Assembly: GCF_019443505.1 (NCBI RefSeq)
Contig: NZ_CP080377.1
Coordinates: 1,860,001 to 1,924,000 of the forward strand
DNA: 64,000 nucleotides
DNA from: Janthinobacterium sp. PAMC25594
GTDB taxonomy: Bacteria > Pseudomonadota > Gammaproteobacteria > Burkholderiales > Burkholderiaceae_D
Direction: 5' to 3'
Position 1 is the first letter of the stretch; each line of letters begins with the position of its first letter. Below the pieces are notes generated by a model. The model was given only the letters and a program-made list of their open reading frames with translations, did no database searches and was not told the origin of the DNA. This document shows, in pieces, positions 50,057 to 64,000 of this stretch. Both the position numbers and the translations under genes were made by a program.

Positions 50057-50887
50057 TCAAGCCTGGTCGCGCCCCAGGATCAGGCGGATGCCGGCGCCGC
50101 GCCCCAGGCTGGCGACGGCCACCAGTGGCATGGCCTCCCCCCGCTGCGCCAGGGCTTGCCGCAAGGCATCGGCCTGGCGTGCGTGGCCGGGCGCGTACAG
50201 GATCTGGCTGCGCTCCTGGCGAAAACCGGGCTGGTTGCGCAGCCGGCTGACCGCCATGCCCCGCGCCTGCACGCGCAAGCGCACCTGCGCCGCCATGCCG
50301 CGTATGCCATTGCCATTGATGATTTCGATCTCGGCCGGCGCCTCCGGCGCGACGGCCACGACTGGCGCGGCTGGCGCGGCCGGCACCAACGCCAGCTGCG
50401 CCGCCTGCACCAGTTGCAAGTTATTGCGCGCCAGTGCCGTGCCGCCATCGCACGCCATGGCCTGCTCGAGCATGCCGGACGCTTGCGCCAGCTCCCCTTG
50501 CAGGTAATACACATAGCCGAGATTATTCAGCGGCTGGGCAGCCGCAGGGAAGTCGCGTACCAGCACCAGCAGCGCCGTGGCAGCCTGTTCAAGCCGGCCC
50601 TGGCGCGCGTCGAGCACGGCCAGCGCATTGCGCGCCGCCAGTTGCTGCGGGTCAAGGGCGATCGAGGCGGCATAGGCTTCGGCGGCAAGCGCAAGCTGGC
50701 CCCGCTCCTGGTAAAACTTGCCCAGTTCAAAATACGTGGCGGCATTCTGGCCGGCGGAATGACTGATGCGCTGCACGCCCTGGACTTGCCACTGCGGCGG
50801 AGCATGGCTGGCTGTGCAGCCCGACAACAGCAGGAATGCCAGCATATACAAGCCTGCCATCCCAAACCGGCTGAATGGCAGCCTCAT
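50057..50887 (-). CDS. tadD: TadD-like TPR lipoprotein with LytR-type C-terminal domain, 276 aa
   Basis: A lipoprotein signal ends in LLSGC (Cys24). TPR units follow (AATYFELGKFYQERGQLALAAEAYAASIALDPQQLAARNALAVLD, then PLNNLGYVYYLQGELAQASGMLEQAM). The C-terminal part (IEIINGNGIRGMAAQVRLRVQARG through YAPGHARQADALRQAL) is a LytR_C-like domain, which is not in classical TadD. TadD probably pilots or stabilises the secretin. The start overlaps tadC by 4 bases. Confidence 0.88.
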   Translation of the reverse strand: MRLPFSRFGMAGLYMLAFLLLSGCTASHAPPQWQVQGVQRISHSAGQNAATYFELGKFYQERGQLALAAEAYAASIALDPQQLAARNALAVLDARQGRLEQAATALLVLVRDFPAAAQPLNNLGYVYYLQGELAQASGMLEQAMACDGGTALARNNLQLVQAAQLALVPAAPAAPVVAVAPEAPAEIEIINGNGIRGMAAQVRLRVQARGMAVSRLRNQPGFRQERSQILYAPGHARQADALRQALAQRGEAMPLVAVASLGRGAGIRLILGRDQA

Positions 50888-51816
50888 ACCGCCCCCATCG
50901 CTGGCAACAGGGCGCGGCGGATCTGCAGCAGGGCAGGCCCCATGAGCACCACCAGCAAGGACGGGAAAATGAAGAAAATCAGGGGGAACAGCAGCTTGAG
51001 CGCAATCTTCGCCGCCGTTTCCTCGGCGCGCTGGCGCCGCTTGGTGCGCAGCTGGTCCGATTGCACGCGCAAGGAGGCGGCGATGCTGGTACCGAAACGC
51101 TCCGCCTGTATCAGCAGGGTCACCAGCGCGTCGACGTCTTCCACGCCCGTGCGCAGGGCCAGGTTGCGCAAAGCCTTGTCCTTGGCGCTGCCTGCGCGCA
51201 GCTCCAGCGTCACCAGTTGCAACTCCTCGGCCAGGATCTCACTTTTCATGCCAATTTCCTGCGCCACGCGCGCCAGCGCCGCATCCATCGCCAGGCCCGC
51301 CTCGACGCAGACGGTCATCAAGTCCAGCGCATCGGGAAAGGTTTCGAAGATTTCGCGCTGCCGCTCTTGCAGGCAATGCTTGAGCCAGAAGTCGGGCAGG
51401 TAATAGCCGAGGGCGGCGGCCAGCACCAGCCACAGGAACAGCTGGTGGTCGCCATGGCGCAGCAGCAGATATGCCAGCAGCGGAAACAGCAGGGTCAGCC
51501 CCGTCTTGGCCGCATAAAACAGCGCTGGTGCGGTACTCTTGCGCCAGCCCGCATTGATGAAGCGGATGCGGATGGGCGACACTTCCCAACCCTCTTCAGG
51601 CAAGGATAGCTTGACCAGCGGACGGGTCAGACTGATCAGGTGTCCCAGCCAGCGCTGGTTCATCCGGCCAGCCTTGCCGGTATCTATTTTCTGCACGTCC
51701 AGGGTATCGAGGCGCATTTGCACCGCGTTGCCCGCAAACAAACGCGCCAGCACCAGGACGATGCCGAACACGATCAGGAACAACACCACCAACAAGCCTA
51801 TCTGCATGCCGCTCAT
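50884..51816 (-). CDS. tadC: Tad inner-membrane platform protein TadC, 310 aa
   Basis: This is a T2SSF-family protein with three hydrophobic regions (residues ~5-27, 113-145 and 275-300) and the cytoplasmic domain FPDALDLMTVCVEAGLAMDAALARVAQEIG, then ERFGTSIAASLRVQSDQLRTKRRQRAEE. With TadB it forms the platform on which the TadA ATPase works. The ATG at 51816 follows GGAAGGTGG. It overlaps tadD and follows tadB by 41 bases. Confidence 0.95.
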   Translation of the reverse strand: MSGMQIGLLVVLFLIVFGIVLVLARLFAGNAVQMRLDTLDVQKIDTGKAGRMNQRWLGHLISLTRPLVKLSLPEEGWEVSPIRIRFINAGWRKSTAPALFYAAKTGLTLLFPLLAYLLLRHGDHQLFLWLVLAAALGYYLPDFWLKHCLQERQREIFETFPDALDLMTVCVEAGLAMDAALARVAQEIGMKSEILAEELQLVTLELRAGSAKDKALRNLALRTGVEDVDALVTLLIQAERFGTSIAASLRVQSDQLRTKRRQRAEETAAKIALKLLFPLIFFIFPSLLVVLMGPALLQIRRALLPAMGAV

Positions 51817-51857: not shown

Positions 51858-52832
51858 TCACACGCGAATGCGGATAATCTTGCGAATCACAAAGACGCCC
51901 ACTACCAGCATGCCAAAGGCGCCCCCGACCATCTTGCGACCGCCGCTGTCCGTATACAACACGGCGAGGAAATCCGGGTTAATCACCTGCATCATCAGGG
52001 CTGCGGCGAAGGGTAGCGAACCGAGTATCCAGGCGGACATGCGCCCTTCGGCCGACAGCACGCGCACCTGGCCCATCAATTTAAGGCGGTCGCGGATGAT
52101 GGCGCTGATACTGTTCAGCAACTCCGTCAGGTTGCCGCCCGTTTCACGCTGGATCAGCACGGCGATGACGAAATAGCGCAGGTCCGTACTGGGCACGCGC
52201 GCCGCCAGGCCCGACAGGGCATCGGACATCGCCACGCCGAAATTGACTTCGTCAAACACGGCGCGGAATTCATCGGCCAGGGGACCCGTCATCTCGTCGC
52301 CGACCATTTTCAGGGCCGTGGGAAAGGCGTGGCCGGCACGCATGGCGCGGCTCATCATGTCCAGGGCGTCGGGCAACTGCTGCTCGATGCGCACCAGCCG
52401 GCTGGCCTTGGCACGCATCACGAGCAAGAACGGCAGCGCCGCACAGGCAAGGCTCAGCAGCAGACGCAGATACCAGGGCAAGGGGCTGAGGCTGCCCAGC
52501 AGCAGCCCGAATAGCAAGCCCAACAGGCAATAGCCGAGCAGCTTGCCCACGTTCCAGTTCTTACCCGACTGCAGCAGCAAGCGATCCAGCCATTGCACGC
52601 CGGGAAGTGCCTCCAGCAAGCCCTGTACGCCCGCATGCGAGCTGAGCTGCCGGTTCTTGGTGATCGACACGGTTTTCTGCGCGTCGTCGCTGGCCGTGTT
52701 CATCGCCAGCAAGCGGCGCGCCACGCGCCCAGCGCCGGCGCCGCGCGACTGCAGGTTGAAGTAAACGGCGCCGACCAGCAGCATGACCGCCAGGAAGATC
52801 AGCAGATACACCAGATACGAGAGATAGCCCAT
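51858..52832 (-). CDS. tadB: Tad inner-membrane platform protein TadB, 324 aa
   Basis: A T2SSF domain runs over residues ~160-300 ([30 protein letters not shown], then [23 protein letters not shown]). Hydrophobic helices lie at ~5-25, ~105-140 and ~275-318. TadB is the partner of TadC in the platform. It begins 6 bases after the tadA stop and is in the same operon. Confidence 0.95.
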
Positions 52833-52838
52833 GCCGCG

Positions 52839-54209
52839 TCAGCGCCCGCTGCCGGTCGGCTCGAAGACCGCGCTGGAAATGCCGATGCCAAAACTCTTCA
52901 GGCGTTCCAGGAAATGGGGACGGATGCCGCTGGCCGAGAAATACCCGACGACCGCCCCGCTCTCCCCCACCCCCGTCTGCTTGAAACTGAAGATTTCCTG
53001 CATCGTGATGACATCGCCCTCCATGCCCGTGATTTCCTGGATCGACGTGACCTTGCGCTTGCCGTCGATCAGGCGCGACACTTGCACCACCACCGATATG
53101 GCCGAGCTGATCTGCTGGCGGATGGCCTTGCTGGGCAAGTTGGCGGCCGCCATGCTGATCATGTTTTCCAGTCGCGTAATGGCGTCGCGCGGAGTGTTGG
53201 CGTGGATGGTGGCCATCGAGCCTTCATGGCCCGTGTTCATCGCGCCGAGCATGTCGAGCGCTTCGGCGCCGCGCACCTCGCCCAGGATGATGCGGTCGGG
53301 ACGCATCCGCAAGGCATTGCGCACCAGCGCGCGCTGCGACACTTCCCCCTTGCCTTCGATATTCGGCGGGCGCGTTTCCAGGCGCACCACGTGCGGCTGC
53401 TGCAATTGCAGCTCGGCCGCGTCTTCCACCGTGACGATGCGTTCGGTATGGCCGATAAAGCCGGAAATCACATTCAGCATGGTGGTCTTGCCGCTGCCCG
53501 TGCCGCCGGAAATGAGGATATTCATCTTCGCCTTGCCCAAGCCCTGCAGCACCTCGGCCATCTCGGCCGTCATGCTGGTGTAGGCGACCAGGTCGGCCAG
53601 GCGCAGGGGATCGACGGAAAAACGCCGGATCGACATCACGGGTCCGTCGATGGCCAGTGGCGGGATGATGGCGTTGACGCGCGACCCATCGGGCAGGCGC
53701 GCATCGACCATGGGGCTCGATTCGTCGATGCGGCGGCCCACGCGCGAGACGATCTTGTCGATGATTTTCATCAGATGGGCATCGTCATTGAACACGACAT
53801 CGGTCAATTCCAGCTTGCCGCGCCGCTCGACATACACTTGCTTGTGGCCATTGACGAGGATATCCGACACGGTCGGGTCCGACAACAAGGTTTCCAGCGG
53901 ACCAAAACCGAGCATCTCGTTGCGGATGTCGCGCGTCAGGTTCTTGCGCTCGACATCATTGATGACCACGGCTTCTTCGTCGAGCAGGCGCTCGACCAGG
54001 CCGCGCAACTCGTCGCGGATCTGTTCCTGCGTCAGCCGCTGCATGCTTTCCAGATCGACGCGCTCGAGCAGCAGCGCGTGAATGCGCTGTTTCAGCTCGC
54101 GGTAACTGCGGTTGTCGATGGACGGCGCGCGCTGCGGCGTCAGGGTAGCGATCTTGCCGTTACCGAGACGCTCGCGGATCGACAGGCTGGGGGCGGGAGA
54201 AGTTGCCAT
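52839..54209 (-). CDS. tadA: Tad pilus assembly ATPase TadA/CpaF, 456 aa
   Basis: This is the GspE/VirB11-family secretion ATPase that drives Flp pilus assembly. Key elements: an N-terminal helical domain, [21 protein letters not shown], the Walker A motif [16 protein letters not shown], the Asp box with [31 protein letters not shown] (Walker B) and the His box [19 protein letters not shown]. Length and order match the family. It has an Ala/Pro-rich start and follows tadZ by 24 bases. Confidence 0.97.
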
Positions 54210-54233: not shown

Positions 54234-55394
54234 TTAGGCGCGCCGCAGCATACGACTCAGCCAGCCCTGCGGCACGGCTTCGACGCTGACGCCCGTCAGG
54301 CTGGCGGCAAACTCCTGCAGCGAGCGCGTGATGGGGCTGTTCTTATCCAGCTGCAAGATCGGCATGCCCTGGTTGACCGATGCGGCGGCCGACGCATAAT
54401 GATTCGGCACCGTGCGGTCGATCGTGGTGCCATACGCCGCCTCCAGGTCCTGCAAGCGGATTTCGCCGCCCTTGTCGTGCCGGTTGACGATCAGGCGCAC
54501 CTTGTCCTTGTCGTATTCCAGCGAACGGAACATGCCCAGCAGGCGCTTGCCATCGCGGATGTACGGCAAGGTCGTTTGCAGGATGGGGAAAATCAGGTCC
54601 GCGTGGTCGAGCGCACGCACGCTGACCGCATCGAGGTTGCGCCCCACGTCGAGCACCACGAAATCATACTGGCGCCGCGCCAGCTTGATGATGGCGTCGA
54701 TATGTTCGGGCAGCACTTCGCTGGCGTGGGCCGGGTCTTCCGGTGCCGCCAGGACGCTGAAATTGGGCAGCACATTGAGCATGCTCGAAGCGAGGAAGGA
54801 CGGGTCCAGGCGGTGGATGTCGCGCGTCACGTCGGACAGGGTGGCCAGCGGCTTGCTCTCGGAGACAAACAGCGAGGCATCGCCGAAGTGCAGGTTCAGG
54901 TCCAGCAGGGCAACACGCTTGTGGCCGCTGGCTGCCAGGGCATAGCCGAGGTTGGTGGCGATGAAGGTGGCGCCACTGCCGCCCTTGCAGGAAATGAAGG
55001 CCAGCACCTTGCCATTGCCATTGTCGCGCCGCTCGAGTTTCTCCTCGATGCGCTCGAGCGCCGGGTAGATGCTGGCGGCGGCGGCCGGCGACGGCAACAC
55101 TTCGCGCACGCCGGCACGCATGGCTTGCAGCAGGAATTCGGGCGAATGCTGCGGACACAGCAGGATGACGGCCAGGCGCGGAAACTGATTGCTCAGCCGC
55201 TCGATGGCGGCCAGGTCGGCGCCATCGTTGCCGGGCCGGTCGAACATCAGCACATCGGGCAGCTCTTGCGCCGAATACAGTTGCTCCAGCGGTCCGCTGC
55301 GGGCATCGACGTCGTCCGCCGGATTGCGGTTGCCGACCAGGCTGCCCAGCTCGGCCAATGCTTTTTCGTCGCGGGATATGATGGCGATTTTCAC
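54234..55394 (-). CDS. tadZ: Tad locus localisation ATPase TadZ/CpaE, 386 aa
   Basis: A receiver-like N-terminal domain (residues ~1-120, lacking the standard phospho-acceptor set) precedes a MinD/ParA-type ATPase domain with the deviant Walker A block VLAFISCKGGSGATFIATNLGYALA and VALLDLNLHFGDAS. CpaE/TadZ marks the cell pole and recruits the Tad machine. The start is GTG at 55394 with AAGG upstream. Next to the small lipoprotein gene (37-base gap). Confidence 0.94.
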   Translation of the reverse strand: MKIAIISRDEKALAELGSLVGNRNPADDVDARSGPLEQLYSAQELPDVLMFDRPGNDGADLAAIERLSNQFPRLAVILLCPQHSPEFLLQAMRAGVREVLPSPAAAASIYPALERIEEKLERRDNGNGKVLAFISCKGGSGATFIATNLGYALAASGHKRVALLDLNLHFGDASLFVSESKPLATLSDVTRDIHRLDPSFLASSMLNVLPNFSVLAAPEDPAHASEVLPEHIDAIIKLARRQYDFVVLDVGRNLDAVSVRALDHADLIFPILQTTLPYIRDGKRLLGMFRSLEYDKDKVRLIVNRHDKGGEIRLQDLEAAYGTTIDRTVPNHYASAAASVNQGMPILQLDKNSPITRSLQEFAASLTGVSVEAVPQGWLSRMLRRA

Positions 55395-55720: not shown

Positions 55721-57259
55721 CTATTGAATGTCGAAGCCAGTCGCCGCTGCGGCGCCCGGTTGTTTGTCGGCCGCTGGCGGCGCCTTGGGATTGCCTTCCA
55801 TCTTCCCTTGCAGGAAGAATTGCGCGCGGCTTGGCGCCACATAGGCATCCGTCGGCAGCACGTAGTCGCTGGCCAGCGGCTTGACCAGATGCGGCGTGAT
55901 GATGAACACCAGTTCGGTGCGGTCGGTCTGGAAATCGCTGCTGCGGAACAAGGCGCCCAGCACGGGAATCTCGCCCAGCATCGGCAGCGCCTTGATATTC
56001 GTGGTCACGTTGTTCTTGATCAAGCCGCCGATGGCGAAGCTCTGGCCGTCGAACAATTGCACCGTGGTGGTGGCGCGCCGCGTGGTAAACGCCGGCAGGA
56101 TGGCGCGGCCGGCGGTGCCGCCCGTGCTGATGCCGATGCCGTCCTTGTTCAGTTCCGACACTTCCGGCGCCACCTTCAGGTTGATGCGCCCGCCATCGAG
56201 CACGGTGGGCGTGAACTTGACGGCGATACCGAACTCCTTTTCTTCCAGGGTGATTTTGTTGGTGGCGCTGTCTTGCGAGACGGGAATGTAGATCTTGCCG
56301 CCGGCCAGGAAGCTGGCCTCCTGGCCGCTGATGGCCATGATGTTCGGTTCGGCCAGCACTTTCACGAGGCCGTCGCGCTTTTGCGCATCGAGCGTGAGGA
56401 AATTGCCGTTTTTACCGTTGAAGCCATCGATCATGCTGGGATTGCCACTCAACAAGTTCGACAGGAAACTGTAAGTCCAGTTGCCGCTGCTGGCGCGCGC
56501 GCCGATGCTGGCGCCCAGCTGGTCGACGAGGGTTTTCGAGACCTCGGCAATTTTTACTTCCAGCATCACCTGCTGCGGCGCGGCGATGGTCAGCATATTG
56601 ATCACGCTCACGCCCGCGGCGCCCGCGCCAGCACCGGCGGCACCGGCGGCAGCGGGCGCTGGCATCACACCCGCTGTCGCAACGGGCGCCGCCGCTTCGC
56701 CGGCACCGCGCTGTGCGAACGCCGTGGCCATGGCCATGATCTGGCTGGCCTTGACGGCATCCGAGACCATGCCCGTCAGCACGATCGCGCCGCCGGCCGA
56801 GCTGGCCTTGAGATCTGTTTCACGGGGAAACACAAGCGCCAGCTGCGCCTGCAAGCCGTCGGCATCGACACCGACTTCGATATCGACGATCACGGGACGG
56901 TGATCCTTGTCCCACAGAATCAGATTGGTGCTGCCCGGTGCCAGGCCCCAGATATACAGCTCGCTGGAACTGCCCAGCAGCCTGGCGCCCGCCACCTTCG
57001 GATCATTGACGGCGATCTGCGAGACGGCACGCGTCAGGCTGCGCAAGGTCGACTTGCCGACGGACAAGCGGATCGGCGGACCCAGCCGGGCGATATCGGC
57101 CCCCAGCGACAACGGGGCCGCCTGGCTGACGGCGTCCACCTTGCGCACGGCGGGCGCGGCGCTGGCGCCGGGCTGCCACAGCAAGCTCGCCGTCAAGCCA
57201 CTCAGGGCCAGGGCCAAGGTCAAGCGGGGCCTGACGATACGGGTACGAAATGAGGTCAT
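55721..57259 (-). CDS. rcpA: Tad secretin RcpA/CpaC, 512 aa
   Basis: The outer-membrane pore of the Tad system. A signal peptide (residues ~1-35) is followed by a BON/N0-like region (RLSVGKSTLRSLTRAVSQIAVNDPKVAGA), a second N domain with a Gly/Ala-rich linker (about 185-215), and the secretin domain with EVSKTLVDQLGASIGARAS, AEPNIMAISGQEASFLAGGKIYIPV and the closing LPMLGEIPVLGALFRSSDFQTDRTELVFIITPHLV. ATG 57259 is preferred over the adjacent TTG; CAGGGATAG lies upstream. Confidence 0.96.
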   Translation of the reverse strand: MTSFRTRIVRPRLTLALALSGLTASLLWQPGASAAPAVRKVDAVSQAAPLSLGADIARLGPPIRLSVGKSTLRSLTRAVSQIAVNDPKVAGARLLGSSSELYIWGLAPGSTNLILWDKDHRPVIVDIEVGVDADGLQAQLALVFPRETDLKASSAGGAIVLTGMVSDAVKASQIMAMATAFAQRGAGEAAAPVATAGVMPAPAAAGAAGAGAGAAGVSVINMLTIAAPQQVMLEVKIAEVSKTLVDQLGASIGARASSGNWTYSFLSNLLSGNPSMIDGFNGKNGNFLTLDAQKRDGLVKVLAEPNIMAISGQEASFLAGGKIYIPVSQDSATNKITLEEKEFGIAVKFTPTVLDGGRINLKVAPEVSELNKDGIGISTGGTAGRAILPAFTTRRATTTVQLFDGQSFAIGGLIKNNVTTNIKALPMLGEIPVLGALFRSSDFQTDRTELVFIITPHLVKPLASDYVLPTDAYVAPSRAQFFLQGKMEGNPKAPPAADKQPGAAAATGFDIQ

Positions 57260-57283
57260 CAACTATCCCTGGTTCTGAAATTT

Positions 57284-58126
57284 TTAAAATTGCTGGACAC
57301 GCGTGTCCATGCCCGTGATCACTTTGACGCTCTCGGCCGGTGGCGCGGGAGCACGCGGCGCCTGCCGCGCTGGCGCTGGCGCAGCCGCGCGCGGCGCGGC
57401 GACCGGCACCAGCGGCTTGAGACCCAGCAGCGATTCCTTGGTGGCGCCGCCCGTGTTGACGGGCGCCGGATCGATCTGGTTGCGCAGCACCAGCGACAAG
57501 GTACCCACGCTGCGCGCCAGGTCGAGCTTTTCCACCTGGTCCGGCGTCAATTCCAGGGTCACCGCATTGACCACCTTGGGCTTGTTGTCGTCGCGGTTCG
57601 ATTCCTGCGCCACGGCCAGCACCAGGATGCGTTCGAGCACGATCTTGGAAATGGCCAGTTCGGCGCCACCGCTGGCCTTGGCGCGGTCGTCCTGGGTATT
57701 GACGAGGATGTCGACAAAGTTGCCAGGCAAGGCAAAGCCCGCCACCCCCACCACATCGTTGACGCGTACGGTCATGGCGCGCTTGCCGTCTGCCACGATG
57801 GACGACAGGCCACCGCTCGTGCCCGGCGGTGCAAGTTTGCTTTCCAGCACCGGTTCACCCAGGCTGATGGCCGTGCGCGTAATGCGCCCGTCGAGCGCCT
57901 TGCTGTCGGCAAAGGCACCGGGCGGCTGCGCGCCGGCGGGCCAGTCCATGCTGCGCAACATGAGCGGAGTGATCTTCGTACCCACGCCGATATCGACCAG
58001 GGCCACGACGATCTTCTGGTTCGACGGCGTACTCTGGCCGCCCATCCAGATCGCCGCCGTCAGCACGGCGGCACCAGCCAGCACCAAGGCCAGCAGCAAC
58101 ATGAGTAAAGCACGGGTATTTCGCAT
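57284..58126 (-). CDS. cpaB: Tad protein RcpC/CpaB, 280 aa
   Basis: An N-terminal membrane helix (residues ~7-27) precedes an SAF/beta-clip domain (KIVVALVDIGVGTKITPLMLRSMDWPAGAQPPGAFADSKALDGRITRTAISLGEPVLESKLAP) and the RcpC core (MTVRVNDVVGVAGFALPGNFVDILVNT). The C-terminal third is Ala/Pro-rich. RcpC modulates secretin gating or binds peptidoglycan. AGAGGAAAA is the ribosome site for ATG 58126. The gap to rcpA is 24 bases. Confidence 0.93.
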   Translation of the reverse strand: MRNTRALLMLLLALVLAGAAVLTAAIWMGGQSTPSNQKIVVALVDIGVGTKITPLMLRSMDWPAGAQPPGAFADSKALDGRITRTAISLGEPVLESKLAPPGTSGGLSSIVADGKRAMTVRVNDVVGVAGFALPGNFVDILVNTQDDRAKASGGAELAISKIVLERILVLAVAQESNRDDNKPKVVNAVTLELTPDQVEKLDLARSVGTLSLVLRNQIDPAPVNTGGATKESLLGLKPLVPVAAPRAAAPAPARQAPRAPAPPAESVKVITGMDTRVQQF

Positions 58127-58142
58127 CGTTTTTCCTCTGACT

Positions 58143-59522
58143 TCAGCTTGATTTCGGTTCACGCCGCTCTTGCACGGCCATGTCATCGGCGCCCTGGCGC
58201 TGATTCGCGCCGGCAAAATAATTGTTCCAGGCCCAGTCCAGCACCTGCTCGTTCAGTTGCGCCGCCGTGCCCTCGTAGCGGGCCAGGTCGCGTACCTGGC
58301 GCAGCAGGTCGCGCGGATAGCAGGCCAGCAAGGGCGTCGCGCCGCGCGCATGGCGCTGCAGCAGGAAGGCAAAGGCGGCCGCGTCGAACTCCATGCCGTA
58401 GGCGGCACAGGTCTGGCGAAAGACGGTTTCGTAATGCGCCGCGCTGAGCGCCGGCACTTCGATCTTGTAGCCCAAGCGGCGCAGGAAGGCCGCATCCGAC
58501 AGGCGCTCGGGCAGGAAATTCGAGGAAAACACCACCACCACGTCGAACGGCACCTGGAAGGTGTGGCCGTTGTGCAGCGACAGGTAATCGATGGCGCGGT
58601 CCATCGGCACGATCCAGCGGTTCATCAGTTCCAGCGGCGAACAGCGCTGGCGCCCCAGGTCGTCGATGATGAAGATACCGTTGTTGGCCTTCAGATGCGG
58701 CGGCGCGCGGTACAAACGCGTCACGCTGTCGAAGCGCAGGTCCAGCATTTCCAGGGTCAGCTCACCGCCGGTGAGCACGGCCGGACGGCGCACGCCGCGT
58801 ACCCAGCGCGCGTCGAGCTGCACGGCGCGCTCGATACCGGCCGGCGCTTCAGGCTGCTGCGCCGCCGGCAGATGCAGCACCGGATCATAAAAGGGCACGA
58901 CTTCGCCATCGACCATGATGGCGTAAGGCAGGGCAATGGCCCCTTGCAGCAAGTCTTGCAGGCGTTCGGCCAGATACGTCTTGCCGCTGCCGGCGGCGCC
59001 GTAGATGAAAATGGCGCGCCCGGAATTCATGGCCGCGCCCAACTGGTCGAGCACGGCAGGATTGACGACCACGCCGTCGAAGCTGGCCTGTACCTGCGGG
59101 CGCGTGACATGCATGTTGGCCACGCTTTGCGCCGCCACCTGCGCGTTGTAGGCGGCCAGCGGCACGGGGCATGGACCCGCATAGGCATTGCGCGCCAGGC
59201 ACTCGAGGGCGCGCTGGCGGCCGCTGTCCGTCAACTGGTAGTGGATGTCGGCATCCGTGCCGCTGGCGCCGCGGCGCATGACTTCGCACATTTTTTCCTG
59301 CCGCATGAAGACCATGACGGGATCGATCACGCCCAGGCCCAGCTTGACGTAGCTGGCCAGCTCGGGCAGGTGCAGCTGTCCCCGCTGGAACAGCACCTTC
59401 ACCAGCAATTCGACCAGGAAAAAGAAGGGCAAGCCCGTCTCTTCGACGGTGCGCGGGGCACGCTGGGCCGCTGGCGCGGCAAGCAGATCAGCAGGCATGG
59501 GCACAGGTACAGAAGACGCCAT
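58143..59522 (-). CDS. AAA ATPase of the Tad operon, 459 aa
   Basis: An AAA+ domain fills residues ~145-420, with Walker A IFIYGAAGSGKTYLAERL, Walker B NNGIFIIDDLGRQ, a sensor 1-like VVVVFSSNFLP and a sensor 2 region ending in LRRLGYKIEVPALS. Its N-terminal 130 residues (FFFLVELLVKVLFQRGQLHLPELASYVKLG) form a helical adaptor domain. It is not one of the classical Tad components (TadA and TadZ are separate here). It sits between tadV and cpaB with 3- and 16-base gaps, so it is in the operon. It may be a chaperone or regulator of the machine. Confidence 0.87.
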   Translation of the reverse strand: MASSVPVPMPADLLAAPAAQRAPRTVEETGLPFFFLVELLVKVLFQRGQLHLPELASYVKLGLGVIDPVMVFMRQEKMCEVMRRGASGTDADIHYQLTDSGRQRALECLARNAYAGPCPVPLAAYNAQVAAQSVANMHVTRPQVQASFDGVVVNPAVLDQLGAAMNSGRAIFIYGAAGSGKTYLAERLQDLLQGAIALPYAIMVDGEVVPFYDPVLHLPAAQQPEAPAGIERAVQLDARWVRGVRRPAVLTGGELTLEMLDLRFDSVTRLYRAPPHLKANNGIFIIDDLGRQRCSPLELMNRWIVPMDRAIDYLSLHNGHTFQVPFDVVVVFSSNFLPERLSDAAFLRRLGYKIEVPALSAAHYETVFRQTCAAYGMEFDAAAFAFLLQRHARGATPLLACYPRDLLRQVRDLARYEGTAAQLNEQVLDWAWNNYFAGANQRQGADDMAVQERREPKSS

Positions 59523-59525
59523 GGA

Positions 59526-60119
59526 TTATGCGAACCTTCCCAGCTGGCCGCTGGCGGCCAGCAGCAGGTAGAGCGAGGTGCCGCTGGCGATGGCGATGGC
59601 ATAGGGCAACTGGCCGCTGGGCTTGGCAGGCGCATCGATATCGGGCCGTTGCGTAGCGATGGCGCGCATCAGGCTATTCAATACCAGGTAATAGCTGTTG
59701 CTCGCAACCTGGCGCAGCGTGCCGTGGAACGCCGCCACGGCCAGCGCCAGCACGCCGCCCGCGAGCAGGCTGGCCAGCAAGCAAAAGAAGACGCTGTGCG
59801 GACCGACAAAAGCGCCCACCATCGCCATCAGTTTCACGTCGCCGGCGCCCAGCGCCTTGATCGCGTACATCGGCATCAGCAGCGCCAGGCCCAGGGCCAG
59901 GCCACCCAGCGCCGGCCAGAAGCCGAGCGCGCCGGGCGCGGCCGTCAACAGTCCTGCACCGGGCGGCAACAGCGTATTGAGCAAGAGTCCGGCCAGCGCA
60001 CCGGCCAACACCAGGCGGTTCGGAATGCGGCGGCTGCGCACGTCGTGATACACGGCCAGCAGCAGCAGAACGGCCAGCAGGACTGCCGGCAACCAGCTCA
60101 GGAAAAGATCGGTGTACAT
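59526..60119 (-). CDS. tadV: Prepilin peptidase TadV/CpaA (A24 family), 197 aa
   Basis: The enzyme cleaves the leader of Flp-type prepilins in the inner membrane. It has five or six hydrophobic helices, with the aspartate protease signature split as DVRSRRIPN (first Asp) and ALGAGDVKLMAMVG (GxGD, second Asp). No N-terminal methyltransferase domain, as expected for TadV. The tail (PDIDAPAKPSGQLPYAIAIASG) keeps the family block. First gene after the terminator that follows flp. Confidence 0.94.
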   Translation of the reverse strand: MYTDLFLSWLPAVLLAVLLLLAVYHDVRSRRIPNRLVLAGALAGLLLNTLLPPGAGLLTAAPGALGFWPALGGLALGLALLMPMYAIKALGAGDVKLMAMVGAFVGPHSVFFCLLASLLAGGVLALAVAAFHGTLRQVASNSYYLVLNSLMRAIATQRPDIDAPAKPSGQLPYAIAIASGTSLYLLLAASGQLGRFA

Positions 60120-60155
60120 GAATTATCCGGCACAGGAAGGACAAGGACTCGGTAC

Positions 60156-60197
60156 AAAAAAAAATGGCCCGGCGCCATGCAAGATGATCCGGGCCAT
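60156..60197 (-). terminator. Leaky terminator between flp and tadV
   Basis: ATGGCCCGG (60164-60172) and CCGGGCCAT (60189-60197) form a 9-bp stem with a 16-base loop; on the minus strand eight T follow. It would let pilin mRNA exceed that of the assembly genes downstream. Confidence 0.8.
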
Positions 60198-60246
60198 CAC
60201 AGTGGCAAGTACACGCTTGGCGTGCGGCTTGCCCTGATGGATATGC

Positions 60247-60414
60247 TTAGGTTGCGGTAATCTTGGCGGCAATTTTGGTAAATACGCCTGCGATGTTAGT
60301 GCCGATCGAGGTCACGGACGCAACGATCACGGCAGCGATCAGCGCAGCGATCAGGCCGTATTCGATTGCGGTAACGCCATCTTCTTCAGCGATAAAATTT
60401 TTGATGAAATTCAT
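60247..60414 (-). CDS. flp: Flp pilin precursor, 55 aa
   Basis: The major Tad pilin. The short leader MNFIKNFIAEEDG ends in the cleavage Gly13, and the mature protein starts VTAIEYGLIAALIAAVIVAS, with the invariant Glu at +5 and Tyr at +6. The C-terminus SIGTNIAGVFTKIAAKITAT is family-like. TadV next door should process it. The ATG at 60414 is the correct start; the frame upstream to 60468 lies in leader DNA. Confidence 0.97.
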   Translation of the reverse strand: MNFIKNFIAEEDGVTAIEYGLIAALIAAVIVASVTSIGTNIAGVFTKIAAKITAT

Positions 60415-60484: not shown

Positions 60485-60631
60485 TTATGAACCCTTGCAT
60501 ATGGCCAGCAGCGCAAGCAGGAACACCACGGCCATCAGCGACAGCAGCAAAGCGTGTTCGAAAAATGAGTTACCACTTTGATCTTGCAAGAAATACGCAA
60601 GCTCACCCGTCCCACCATCGTTCAAGCGCAT
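60485..60631 (-). CDS. Second Flp-like prepilin, 48 aa, short gene found by eye
   Basis: A 49-codon ORF runs from ATG 60631 to TAA 60485. An AGGAG ribosome site lies 6 bases before the ATG. The protein starts MRLNDGGTGELAYFLQDQSG and continues NSFFEHALLLSLMAVVFLLALLAI before ending CKGS. Its layout copies Flp prepilins: a charged leader ending in Gly (residue 20), then a helix with Glu at +5, an aromatic-like His at +6, Ala at +7 and Leu at +8, followed by about 18 hydrophobic residues. It lies 70 bases before flp, on the same strand, and 175 bases after the response regulator. It is shorter and more divergent than normal Flp and lacks the usual tail. It is probably a minor or initiating pilin, cleaved by TadV, though not yet shown. 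Confidence 0.7.
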   Translation of the reverse strand: MRLNDGGTGELAYFLQDQSGNSFFEHALLLSLMAVVFLLALLAICKGS

Positions 60632-60781
60632 TTCCAGCTCCTGTCACCGTTCGCATTTTCAATCTGGCTAACTCAGCGACGATCACCGATTGCTGATAAC
60701 GGTATTGTATGGAAAGACACATTGATACTAATCAGACAAAAGTCATTTTGTTGCCGGTACAAAAGAGCCTTTTTTCCTACA

Positions 60782-60810
60782 TGACATCAGTACATTTGTA
60801 CTGACATCAG
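60782..60810. promoter_or_regulatory. Direct and inverted repeats at the end of the response regulator gene
   Basis: TGACATCAG occurs at 60782-60790 and again at 60802-60810, 20 bases apart, so the copies sit on one helix face. Between and across them, AGTACA (60789-60794) and TGTACT (60797-60802) form a 14-bp palindrome with a 2-base centre. It overlaps the regulator stop codon and lies upstream of the two pilin genes. It is a likely regulator-binding site, or possibly a weak hairpin. Confidence 0.5.
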
Positions 60811-61496
60811 CATTCCTGGGGCGCCGCCAGCCCGTTTTTCACCGCGTAGACATACAATTCCAGCCGGTTGGCAACGTCCAGTTTGTTGTAAATCGACGTC
60901 AAGTGATTGCGCAAGGTTTGCTCGGAAATGAAAGCGCGCTGCGCGATGGTCTTGTTGAGTGCCCCATTGCCTTCGACCATCATGGCGACAATCTTGCGTT
61001 CCTTGAGGGTCAGCAGGGCAATGCGCGCCATTTCGGGATCGGGCGGCGCCGGCATGGGCACCGGCTTGATCAGCGCTCCCAGCAGACTGCCCAGCAAGGC
61101 CTGGTCCAGGCACAATTCGCCCCGATGTACCCTGGCAATGGTATCGATCACCTGCTCCGCCGCCGCCTCCTTGCCGATCACGCCGCGCGCGCCGCTGCGC
61201 ACGGCGCGGCCCAGCACCTCCTGGTCGCGCGTGCCGCTGAACATCACCGCCCGCGTGACGCCATTGGCCAACAGCGCGGGGATGAAATCGACGGAACACA
61301 CGCCGGCGAGGTCCACGTCCAGCACGACAATATCGGGGCGCAAGCTCTCGGCAAGCTCCAGCGCGCCGCCTATCGTGCTGGTACTGGCGACCACCTGCAT
61401 CGCCGGTTGCGCCTCTTCCAGCAGTTTTTCCAGTCCCCACAACATGGTTTTATGATCATCAACCAGCATGACGCGGATGGGATGCAGACTTGACAT
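60807..61496 (-). CDS. NarL/LuxR-type response regulator of the Tad locus, 229 aa
   Basis: A receiver domain spans residues ~7-125: acidic pair VDDHKTM, phospho-acceptor Asp60 in VVLDVDLAGV, the conserved Thr/Ser region MFSGTRDQEV and Lys in IGKEAAAEQ. A LuxR-type HTH follows at ~160-222 (ALLTLKERKIVAMMVEGNGALNKTIAQRAFISEQTLRNHLTSIYNKLDVANRLELY). It follows its kinase by 39 bases and precedes the pilin genes, so it probably controls flp. ATG 61496 with AAAGG upstream. Confidence 0.94.
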   Translation of the reverse strand: MSSLHPIRVMLVDDHKTMLWGLEKLLEEAQPAMQVVASTSTIGGALELAESLRPDIVVLDVDLAGVCSVDFIPALLANGVTRAVMFSGTRDQEVLGRAVRSGARGVIGKEAAAEQVIDTIARVHRGELCLDQALLGSLLGALIKPVPMPAPPDPEMARIALLTLKERKIVAMMVEGNGALNKTIAQRAFISEQTLRNHLTSIYNKLDVANRLELYVYAVKNGLAAPQEC

Positions 61497-61535: not shown

Positions 61536-63233
61536 TCAGACTGGAATTTCAATATGCACGGTGGTGGCGCCATCAGCGCCCTGGCTGACCTGCACCCGAC
61601 CGCCCAGCGCCATGGCGCGTTCAGCAATGGAGGCAGGCATGAACTCGACGCGGGACGACGTTTCGCCGGCATTCTCTATCGATATCGACAAGGCATGCGC
61701 ATCGCAGACGAGTGTCACGCGGCCCTCGCGGGCGGTGGTGTGCTTGCGGATATTGCTCATGCCTTCATTGACGATCTGGAATACTTCGGCTGCCAGCCGG
61801 TCGCTGAGATCAAACGCGCTGTCCGAGACGATCTCGATCGTGATGCCAAAAAACTTCTTGAGCTGCTCCGCCTGGCGCCGCAACGCCACCAGCAAGGTCA
61901 CCTGTTCCCGCTCCGCGCCGCCGCGCACCGTCTGCGCCATCCGGCGCAGGTCGCCAATCACCTGGCCACTCATGTCGATCAGCTGATCGAGATCGGCCAG
62001 CAAGGGGCTGTCGGCGGCCACCTTGGCGCGCAAGGCGCTCAAGCCATGGCGCAGGCCGATATACGGCTGGATGGTCGAATCGTGCAAGTCGCGCGCAATC
62101 TTTTGCCGCTCGCGGTACGCCGCGCCGGAGGCCAGCTTGTCGAGAATGGCGATGTTTTCAATCAGGGGGAACACTTGCGCCACGATATGCAGCAGGAATC
62201 TGGCGTCGGCCCGGGTCAGCCGGTTCTTCGCGGAGATCACGTAGATGCGGCCCAGTCCCTTATGCAAAGGCAGGGGCACGCTGATGAAGGAGCGCGCATC
62301 GAGCAGTTCGGCCAGCGCCGTGCCCTGCGGCCCATGCGCATCGAGCCGCTGCCACTTCGCACTGCCGCGTTCGACTCCCGTGAGCACGCTCGCCAGTCCC
62401 AGGCGCGCGCGCAACGACGGCGCGTACAGCACGCTCTGGCTGGCATCGAACACCATCAGCGGCGCCACCGCGGCTTCGCTCAGCTGGCTGACACGCCCAG
62501 CATGTCCGCCTCTCTCTTCGAGCGCCGTACGCAACTGCCACTGCGCCCCATCGCCCTCGCGCATGACGAGGATACAGCTGCTGGCGTCAAAAAAGGCACG
62601 CGCTTTCTGCAAGACCGACGCCACCGTGTGGTCGACGCCAAAGCGGGGATTCGATTGCTGGCTGACCTCGCGCAACAACGCCAGGCGGCGCTTCTGCAAC
62701 AGCCCCAGGCCGCCCCAGTACGCAATCATGTAGCCGAGCGCCATGACAAAGGTGGTGCGCAGCAACAGGTGCGAAATGATCAGCTCGGGGGTCGATGCCA
62801 CCGATGCCAGCACCAGCAGAACACAGGAGGCAAGCGTGATGCGCGCGCCTTCATCGAGTCCGCGCTGAAACGACGCCGCCAGGATAACGAAGAAAAAGAA
62901 AGGGAAAAAATAGCTTTCGGCGCCGCCGGTACCATACACGATCAGGCCGCACCACAGCACGTCGAGCCAGCATATCACCTTGCCATGCACTACCGGATGC
63001 TTGAAATAAAGAAAAACAAACAGCACTGCGCTATGCAGAACGTATGAACACAGGATCAACCAGGCCAGCTGATTCGGCACACCCAGCTTGCCCGGGTTGA
63101 TGATCAGCGTTAATAACGCCGTCACCGACAGCAGCAGGCGCATGCCAGAGATCATGATCAAATCTGCATGATCGACCATTGGCAATGCCGTATCGGCATT
63201 TGGTTCCTCTTGCAGTTGTTGCTGTTGCAGCAT
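61536..63233 (-). CDS. NarL-type sensor histidine kinase of the Tad locus, 565 aa
   Basis: Six or so transmembrane helices (residues ~27-180) form an MASE-like sensor, with GAF-like sequence at ~195-365. The HisKA_3 helix carries His384 in KIARDLHDSTIQPYIGL; the HATPase domain shows VFQIVNEGMSNIRKHT (N box) and a degenerate G1 (SIENAGE in place of DNG). The signal is unknown. The kinase and the response regulator are paired in one operon, divergent from tadE. The ATG at 63233 has only a weak ribosome site. Confidence 0.93.
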   Translation of the reverse strand: MLQQQQLQEEPNADTALPMVDHADLIMISGMRLLLSVTALLTLIINPGKLGVPNQLAWLILCSYVLHSAVLFVFLYFKHPVVHGKVICWLDVLWCGLIVYGTGGAESYFFPFFFFVILAASFQRGLDEGARITLASCVLLVLASVASTPELIISHLLLRTTFVMALGYMIAYWGGLGLLQKRRLALLREVSQQSNPRFGVDHTVASVLQKARAFFDASSCILVMREGDGAQWQLRTALEERGGHAGRVSQLSEAAVAPLMVFDASQSVLYAPSLRARLGLASVLTGVERGSAKWQRLDAHGPQGTALAELLDARSFISVPLPLHKGLGRIYVISAKNRLTRADARFLLHIVAQVFPLIENIAILDKLASGAAYRERQKIARDLHDSTIQPYIGLRHGLSALRAKVAADSPLLADLDQLIDMSGQVIGDLRRMAQTVRGGAEREQVTLLVALRRQAEQLKKFFGITIEIVSDSAFDLSDRLAAEVFQIVNEGMSNIRKHTTAREGRVTLVCDAHALSISIENAGETSSRVEFMPASIAERAMALGGRVQVSQGADGATTVHIEIPV

Positions 63234-63356: not shown

Positions 63357-63509
63357 TCAATTAACTACATTTATTACAAGAAACTTGATTTATATGCACT
63401 TTGGTGCCACCCTTGCGCACTCGAAGCGAGATACAATGAAGAGTGCCCCATGGGCAACAGGCCCGCCATCACACCGATGCCGGCGCGAGCCTTGATACGG
63501 ATACCAGAC

Positions 63510-64000
63510 ATGATGCTCAACCAGGCCACACCCTTCCGGTCCCCGCAAGGCAAATTCAGGCAATGCGGCTCCGCCATCGTCGAGTTCGCCATCATCGCAC
63601 CGGTCTTCCTGCTGTTCATGATAGGCATCATCGAACTGAGCATGGCATATTTCGCCAATCTCACCATGCAGCATGCGGTGCGTGAGGGGGCGCGCTATGC
63701 CGTGACGGGCAACAGCGATCTCGATCCCGCCAGCAGCAACCAGCAGCGCTACCAGGCCGTCATTCAAAAAATGAAAGCCAGTTCGATGGGCATCTACGAC
63801 AAGGTCAATCCCGTCATCACGGTGAACGGCGTCAGCGGCACCAGTGCCGGCATGTTCGGCAACGCGGGCGATATCGTCGTCATCTCCGTCGCATACAACT
63901 GGACATTCGCCACGCCGATGATGGCCGCCTTCTACAAGGACGGCAAGGCGCCCTACGTGGTGGCCGCCACCATGCGCAATGAAAGTTTTGGCGGCCTATG
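63510..64000 (+). CDS. tadE: TadE-family prepilin-like protein, 3' end beyond the window
   Basis: The frame is open from ATG 63510 (or 63513; upstream in-frame ATG at 63450) to the window end, 163 codons so far. After a basic leader ending in RQCG, the sequence SAIVEFAIIAPVFLLFMIGIIELSMAYFANLTM is a typical TadE/TadF pseudopilin helix with Glu at +5 and a Gly cleavage site. A periplasmic domain follows (REGARYAVTGNSDLDPASSN, later NAGDIVVISVAYNW). TadE is a pseudopilin processed by TadV. It is divergent from the kinase gene and probably begins a second Tad-related transcript (tadE-tadF-tadG) outside the window. Confidence 0.93.
   Translation, partial: MMLNQATPFRSPQGKFRQCGSAIVEFAIIAPVFLLFMIGIIELSMAYFANLTMQHAVREGARYAVTGNSDLDPASSNQQRYQAVIQKMKASSMGIYDKVNPVITVNGVSGTSAGMFGNAGDIVVISVAYNWTFATPMMAAFYKDGKAPYVVAATMRNESFGGL

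Follow-up and report, generated by a model that had tools for sequence, protein, structure and literature searches.

A short Flp-like gene at the head of a tad locus

The window, the whole stretch of 64,000 nucleotides analysed here, carries a tad locus that is complete with its prepilin peptidase gene and continues past the window end (Table 1). Between the gene of a LuxR-type response regulator and flp, which encodes an ordinary major Flp prepilin, lies an open reading frame of 48 codons on the same strand, here called mini-Flp. An earlier note on this DNA had described the ORF with an AGGAG ribosome site, a Gly at residue 20 and a Glu at +5; all are present in the sequence, and its placement between regulator and flp was borne out by domain matches. 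The genes of TadE-, TadF- and TadG-like proteins belong to the same locus and are divergent from mini-Flp and flp.

Table 1. Features of the tad locus around mini-Flp (window positions, except where L219 is given)
Feature	Position	Strand	Basis or remark
tadC platform protein	50884..51816	-	T2SSF
tadB platform protein	51858..52832	-	T2SSF
cpaF/tadA motor ATPase	52839..54209	-	T2SSE
cpaE/tadZ-like ATPase	54234..55394	-	AAA_31
cpaC/rcpA secretin	55721..57262	-	Secretin
cpaB/rcpC	57284..58216	-	RcpC, SAF
AAA ATPase gene between tadV and cpaB	58143..59522	-	AAA matches under cut-off
tadV/cpaA prepilin peptidase	59526..60119	-	Peptidase_A24
flp, major prepilin of the ordinary Flp kind, 54 aa	60247..60411	-	PF04964, 60.4 bits
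mini-Flp, short Flp-like ORF, 48 aa, ATG to TAA	60485..60631	-	translation, conservation, dN/dS
Mature peptide (predicted), 28 aa, residues 21-48; a single hydrophobic helix	60488..60571	-	AlphaFold2, hydropathy
Predicted leader, residues 1-20, Gly20 at -1	60572..60631	-	G/XXXXE motif in sequence
AGGAG ribosome site	60638..60642	-	sequence; 6 nt 5' of mini-Flp ATG
TTTGTACC/T box, downstream of palindrome	60756..60763	-	9/9 type A loci
Palindrome CAGTACAAATGTACTG	60788..60803	-	directly 3' of regulator stop codon
LuxR-type response regulator	60807..61496	-	Response_reg, GerE
Histidine kinase	61536..63233	-	HisKA_3 above cut-off, HATPase_c below cut-off
tadE-like minor pilin gene, running past window end	63450..64000	+	PF07811 on L219 551-1102
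tadF-like gene, beyond window after tadE-like	L219 1099-1707		PF07811
tadG-like gene (vWA), beyond window after tadF-like	L219 1704-3068		VWA, Tad

The translation of mini-Flp reads MRLNDGGTGELAYFLQDQSG and then NSFFEHALLLSLMAVVFLLALLAICKGS, up to the stop codon, with Gly at residue 20, Glu at +5 and His at +6. In the AlphaFold2 model it forms a single helix over residues 8-47, with a mean pLDDT of 71.5 and a mean of 95 in the block of residues 31-40. All six frames of the window were scanned for ORFs that combine a start codon with G-x4-E and a hydrophobic stretch of 18 residues, at a hydropathy cut of 2.2. Mini-Flp (2.59) was the sole match, and none of 20 triplet-shuffled windows gave one; the scan is strict, as flp itself narrowly misses the cut (2.15).

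Several features by which Flp pilins are recognised were compared. Mini-Flp has the G/XXXXE motif after its leader (which 0/26 of the type B proteins described below have), a single long hydrophobic helix after this site in the AlphaFold2 model, and a tad locus around it. At 48 aa it falls outside a length of 50-80 aa with a C-terminal stretch past the helix core. Its match to PF04964 is weak (12.8 bits, E 0.1) and does not reach 32.2, the gathering score by which Pfam operationally assigns Flp membership. Searches of mini-Flp against TadE-like (PF07811) and Tad (PF13400) gave no match up to E 10, and a search against NCBIfam gave none.

Conservation and constraint in Janthinobacterium

Forty Janthinobacterium genomes were searched with the ORF and the same 40 with the regulator as an anchor. 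The 51 regulator matches comprised 9 loci of type A, 25 of type B, 11 of type C and similar, and 6 others with no flp seen beside the regulator. Type A is the locus of the window and its orthologues, found in nine genomes with regulators 85-100% identical. The ORF is intact in six of them, at 74-100% identity and with the ribosome site ACAGGAGC kept in all six. In the other three it has decayed, the start codon being lost in every case and the stop or the frame as well in two. At these three loci the kinase, regulator, flp, tadV, tadE and tadF genes were all found, and tadG was matched up to the point where the fetched stretch ends.

Type B is a paralogous Tad locus in 25 genomes, with a regulator 49-54% identical to that of the window. 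All 25 loci hold a homologous 48-aa ORF with a GGAG site in the slot between regulator and flp, for example MRLDKFLPTALITYLQGKEKAAFYRYALVAALMAVVCIIGLLALGESP; it aligns with the type A ORF without internal gaps and shares 31-35% identity with the window protein. Type C and one similar locus have regulators 64-71% identical and no mini-Flp (0/11 in a profile search). Type C keeps the regulator beside flp, and in type C and similar loci flp lies 192-311 bases past the regulator match; the distance was measured in two type A loci as 395-400 bases. The earlier note had held that absence or decay of the ORF at intact Tad loci would speak against it. Part of this was found, at the three decayed type A loci and the 11 of type C and similar, as against the six type A loci with an intact ORF. 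An intact type B copy occurs in all three genomes with a decayed type A ORF and also in four of the six with an intact one, so no meaning is attached to this co-occurrence.

Codon statistics point to a protein. The pairwise dN/dS ratio (NG86) was 0.149 among 25 type B sequences and 0.247 among 6 type A sequences, of which the five close ones alone gave 0.28 with too few changes to say much. The other two frames of the 25 type B sequences, used as a control, gave 1.33 and 2.75. The ORF is therefore under constraint at the protein level. The earlier note had proposed a conserved Gly/+5 Glu pattern and a low dN/dS ratio as checks; within type A the pattern is conserved, Gly at -1 and Glu at +5 each standing in 19/19 distinct proteins. 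Mini-Flp is thus a real, conserved gene under purifying selection.

The two types differ in where they are constrained. In type A (19 proteins) the mean entropy at the site was 0.10 bits. Over residues 2-13 it was 1.65 bits in type A, compared to 0.98 bits in type B; over residues 14-19 type A was the less variable (0.50 versus 0.84 bits). These values come from proteins drawn from a profile search covering both types, which selects for whole-protein similarity. Two type A proteins were trimmed to 48 residues, one at the start and one at the end, and P0015, a longer protein that ends in the 48 residues of P0014, was left out. The type B set was taken without P0006, P0007, P0012, P0013, P0028 and P0032, all of which also have neither Gly at -1 nor Glu at +5; its 26 distinct proteins carry Lys or Arg at -1 and Arg or Gln at +5 throughout. 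An invariant site with a drifting leader is the pattern expected of a cleaved prepilin. As judged from these residues, type A would be a prepilin that is cleaved and whose leader is free to vary, whereas type B probably stays uncleaved.

The flp and tadV genes are of a different version in three of the nine type A loci, with flp 58-63% and tadV 62-63% identical to those of the window. The short ORF in these three loci is 91-100% identical to that of the window; the flanking genes are mostly 95-99% identical, apart from a small lipoprotein-like ORF at 87-96% and tadE to tadG at 76-96%. Mini-Flp is independent of one particular flp-tadV pair, since it was not exchanged along with it. The joint swapping of flp and tadV (59526-60411; L073, L074 and L077) between otherwise close tad loci marks them as a pilin-peptidase cassette.

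Two further observations concern the surroundings of the gene. The palindrome CAGTACAAATGTACTG is kept, allowing one base change, in eight of the nine type A loci; together with the TTTGTACC/T box it is possibly an operator of the response regulator. A similar GTAC-GTAC pattern was found upstream of 0/25 type B ORFs. The AAA ATPase gene flanked by tadV and cpaB is present in 9/9 type A loci (the window and eight fetched relatives) and in many of the tad loci compared, without a Pfam match above the cut-off.

Short relatives in the family and their Flp ancestry

A mini-Flp profile matched in 188 of 392 family genomes at E <= 0.1, a permissive threshold under which ordinary Flps are included too. 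Loci outside the genus were anchored on the regulator to avoid selection by mini-Flp itself. At least 100 regulator matches outside the genus were listed, of which 79 were fetched as regulator-anchored stretches; of 21 others listed, 16 had already been fetched through the short ORF and were kept out, and 5 were unfetched. One stretch obtained alongside these on account of a different hit, L212, was excluded. After 27 stretches without flp in the fetched part had been left aside, 52 were counted. Among these listed matches, a short ORF lies in or next to the slot in 47/52: it has G-x4-E, the canonical form, in 24 and is of type D in 23, and the other 5 show neither form. Each of the 24 canonical loci has one short gene beside 1 to 5 scored copies of the major flp.

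The type D ORF has a GTG start, a ribosome site that is mostly ACAGGAGC, no Glu at +5 in any of the 23 loci and a variable residue at -1; an example is VYDKEDNPEQHYERSGSPAMSYLVLSVLLAVVCFIAALAVWTSA. Fifteen of the loci were assigned by profile score and eight, below that score, by GTG start, ribosome site and alignment. Internal indels are multiples of three, and dN/dS was 0.29 for 23 sequences from 22 loci. Profile comparison gave 94.9% for type D against the mini-Flps versus 6% against ordinary Flps. Relatives resembling Herminiimonas and Collimonas have the short canonical form immediately 5' of tadV; the kinase and regulator are absent from the fetched stretch, and three of the four genomes carry the regulator at another place on that contig. 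One genus (g64; L174, L176-L180 and L182) has arrays of 3-5 near-identical major flp genes, with one short flp each, except L177, whose stretch stops at the contig end.

An extension of the short form to the order was rejected. In a sample of 399 genomes of the order the profile matched at E <= 1e-6 in 32, and loci were given for 20 matches (L220-L238 and L112, the window's own). The Flp-like ORFs passing a motif filter (L221-L238) have 34-46 residues after Glu at +5, and two further ORFs with 125 and 132 residues after it are TadE-like. No short form was found outside the family in this sample with this filter, the Flps that it showed there being of ordinary length; the lone short one (L220) belongs to the family.

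Compared to the ordinary Flps, the window protein has 23 residues after Glu at +5, and the short forms 20-27, mostly 23-24. Comparison of the mini-Flp profile with that of the major Flps gave a probability of 96.7, with the alignment covering the end of the leader and the helix. Members of the canonical profile matched PF04964 in 12 of 14 cases at E up to 10, the best at 1.8e-8. Some 48-aa relatives carry PF04964 in precomputed annotation, and in metagenomic ones, for example MRLVVPLPPVFLHFHGEEDGTSLIEYALVASLIAVVCIIALLALGKGA, PF04964 occurs along with a complete Flp signature. Among the best 120 of 246 relatives found with the canonical profile, 106 are 47-48 aa long.

The earlier note had taken the gene to be perhaps unannotated and below the usual length cut-offs of gene callers. 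The latter does not hold in general, as 48-aa relatives stand in public protein sets. The former is true of many relatives but not of all: some in Janthinobacterium, Duganella, Massilia and Pseudoduganella are named "hypothetical protein", whereas some in Undibacterium, Collimonas and Rugamonas are called "Flp family type IVb pilin" and some other 48-aa relatives "Flp pilus assembly pilin". Relatives are thus already known in databases, some of them as Flp family members, and the 48-aa gene type is named inconsistently. The literature searched yielded no report of a short paralogue of Flp encoded between regulator and flp in members of this family. A transcriptome study of Janthinobacterium HH102 lists an Flp cluster, beginning with flp/pilA, as quorum-regulated (PMC5080296).

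A possible minor pilin or membrane factor

Mini-Flp shares parts of its design with several known components of Tad pili. Like the Flp/Fap major pilins (PF04964; for example, Flp-1 of Aggregatibacter), it has a leader, G/XXXXE and one hydrophobic helix, and its gene adjoins tadV. It differs from them in carrying His rather than Tyr at +6. It is also short: 48 aa, with a predicted mature peptide of 28, compared to the 50-80 aa given for Flps in PMC12075869, and to the 45 residues given for the mature Caulobacter Tad pilin in PMC11067988. TadE, TadF and TadG (CpaJ, CpaK and CpaL) are, like it, pilin-like minor Tad parts encoded in the same locus; here they are 183, 202 and 454 aa long with PF07811 or Tad and vWA matches and, unlike mini-Flp, they are not Flps. 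Extra flp copies are called the Flp-2 type. Second copies such as ESAVTAIEYALL (type B, Duganella-like) resemble mini-Flp in being an additional Flp gene near flp but, in the cases read, they are 57-58 aa long, lie downstream of flp and have Ala or Gly at -1. Further Flp-like genes of ordinary length 3' of flp, with Ala at -1 in cases such as ESAVTAIEYALL, were seen at L061-L063, L119, L120 and L127.

KilK and KilO of the Myxococcus Kil/Tad pilus offer the nearest functional comparison. According to PMC12075869, they are Flp-type minor pilins that join TadEFG-like tips to the filament and are needed for its polymerisation. Like mini-Flp they are of Flp type, with a leader and a conserved cleavage motif, and occur beside a major Flp and TadEFG-like tips (PMC12075869). 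KilO, however, is 59 aa long, and both are encoded in tip gene clusters rather than 5' of flp, and their function is known by deletion (PMC12075869). PMC10191384 describes tip-located minor pilins that begin filament assembly, in a complex capped by a subunit without Glu5.

Mini-Flp may well be a functional gene for a 48-aa Flp-derived prepilin that serves as a minor pilin, either adapter or primer; from the comparisons made here, our confidence in this reading is about evenly balanced. TadV/CpaA would most likely cut the protein after Gly20 and release a helix of 28 residues that lacks the exposed C-terminal portion found in ordinary Flps. This helix would enter the pilus as a minor pilin and might either join the TadE/TadF/TadG tip complex to the Flp filament or prime the filament, while building no shaft. 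A helix-only Flp that heads the pilus genes, occurs once in each canonical locus and is accompanied by TadEFG fits such an adapter or primer, and a single canonical short gene beside 1 to 5 major flp genes is as expected of a low-copy subunit. The earlier note's proposal of a minor or initiator pilin is supported in part, as regards a real, conserved short gene of Flp type with a G/XXXXE invariant in its own subfamily, short canonical relatives and a profile match; the minor or initiator role itself is putative.

Several findings count against the minor pilin. Neither Gly at -1 nor Glu at +5 is found in the type B proteins, which are conserved nevertheless, and type D, with no Glu at +5 in 23/23 loci and a variable -1, is also constrained. 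Where Glu at +5 alone is lost, the protein could suit a cap position; type B and some of type D have lost the cleavage residue too, which is at odds with a filament subunit and raises instead the prospect of a membrane factor or regulator. The window protein scores below the Pfam cut-off, the gene does not move with an exchanged flp-tadV pair, and it is decayed in three of nine orthologous loci and absent from all 11 loci of type C and similar.

The main rival is a Flp-derived membrane microprotein that is no filament subunit but remains in the inner membrane, without being cleaved in types B and D. It might act on the assembly platform or TadV, or signal inventory to the histidine kinase encoded next to it, comparable to the pilin-PilS control in Pseudomonas reportedly described by Kilmury and Burrows in 2016. 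Two lineages without the prepilin signature retain the ORF at nearly the same length, with its helix, slot and purifying selection; residues 2-13 are the better conserved in type B; and mini-Flp, kinase and regulator remain 91-100% identical across type A loci while flp and tadV were exchanged in three of nine. This explanation is tentative and held at clearly below even confidence, however, as the cleavage motif is invariant in type A and kept in the canonical relatives, residues 14-19 are less variable in type A than in type B, in the Herminiimonas- and Collimonas-like loci the gene is beside tadV and the stretch fetched shows neither kinase nor regulator, and type C has the regulator beside flp without mini-Flp. 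Decay and absence could also be read as the signs of a vestigial second flp copy that is heading to loss with no present role, as could the loss of signature residues in two lineages, but dN/dS of 0.15-0.29 in three groups, a length of 48 aa in 25/25 type B loci, ribosome sites that are kept and type D indels in multiples of three make this improbable. That the ORF arose by chance over a leader or operator region, as its shortness and the conserved palindrome upstream could suggest, is hardly credible given its codon-level constraint, the homologues found throughout the family, an off-frame dN/dS of 1.3 and 2.7 and 0/20 shuffled windows; conservation in type A and B loci together with the codon statistics rules it out.

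A broader reading is that mini-Flp is a Flp-derived microprotein dedicated to the Tad loci of this family, in which the membrane helix, and not the pilin signature, is essential, and which would be a cleaved minor pilin in some lineages and an uncleaved membrane factor in two. We regard this as rather unlikely. If true, it would describe a pilin turned regulator or chaperone that acts on pilus assembly or on the kinase and has retained its slot.

The initiation of Tad pili and the joining of tip to filament are only now being worked out, and a conserved pilin of about 28 mature residues would be a small and tractable candidate for these steps. The natural series in this family, from the canonical form and type A through the signature-less types B and D to its absence in type C, lets the features that such a protein requires be tested.
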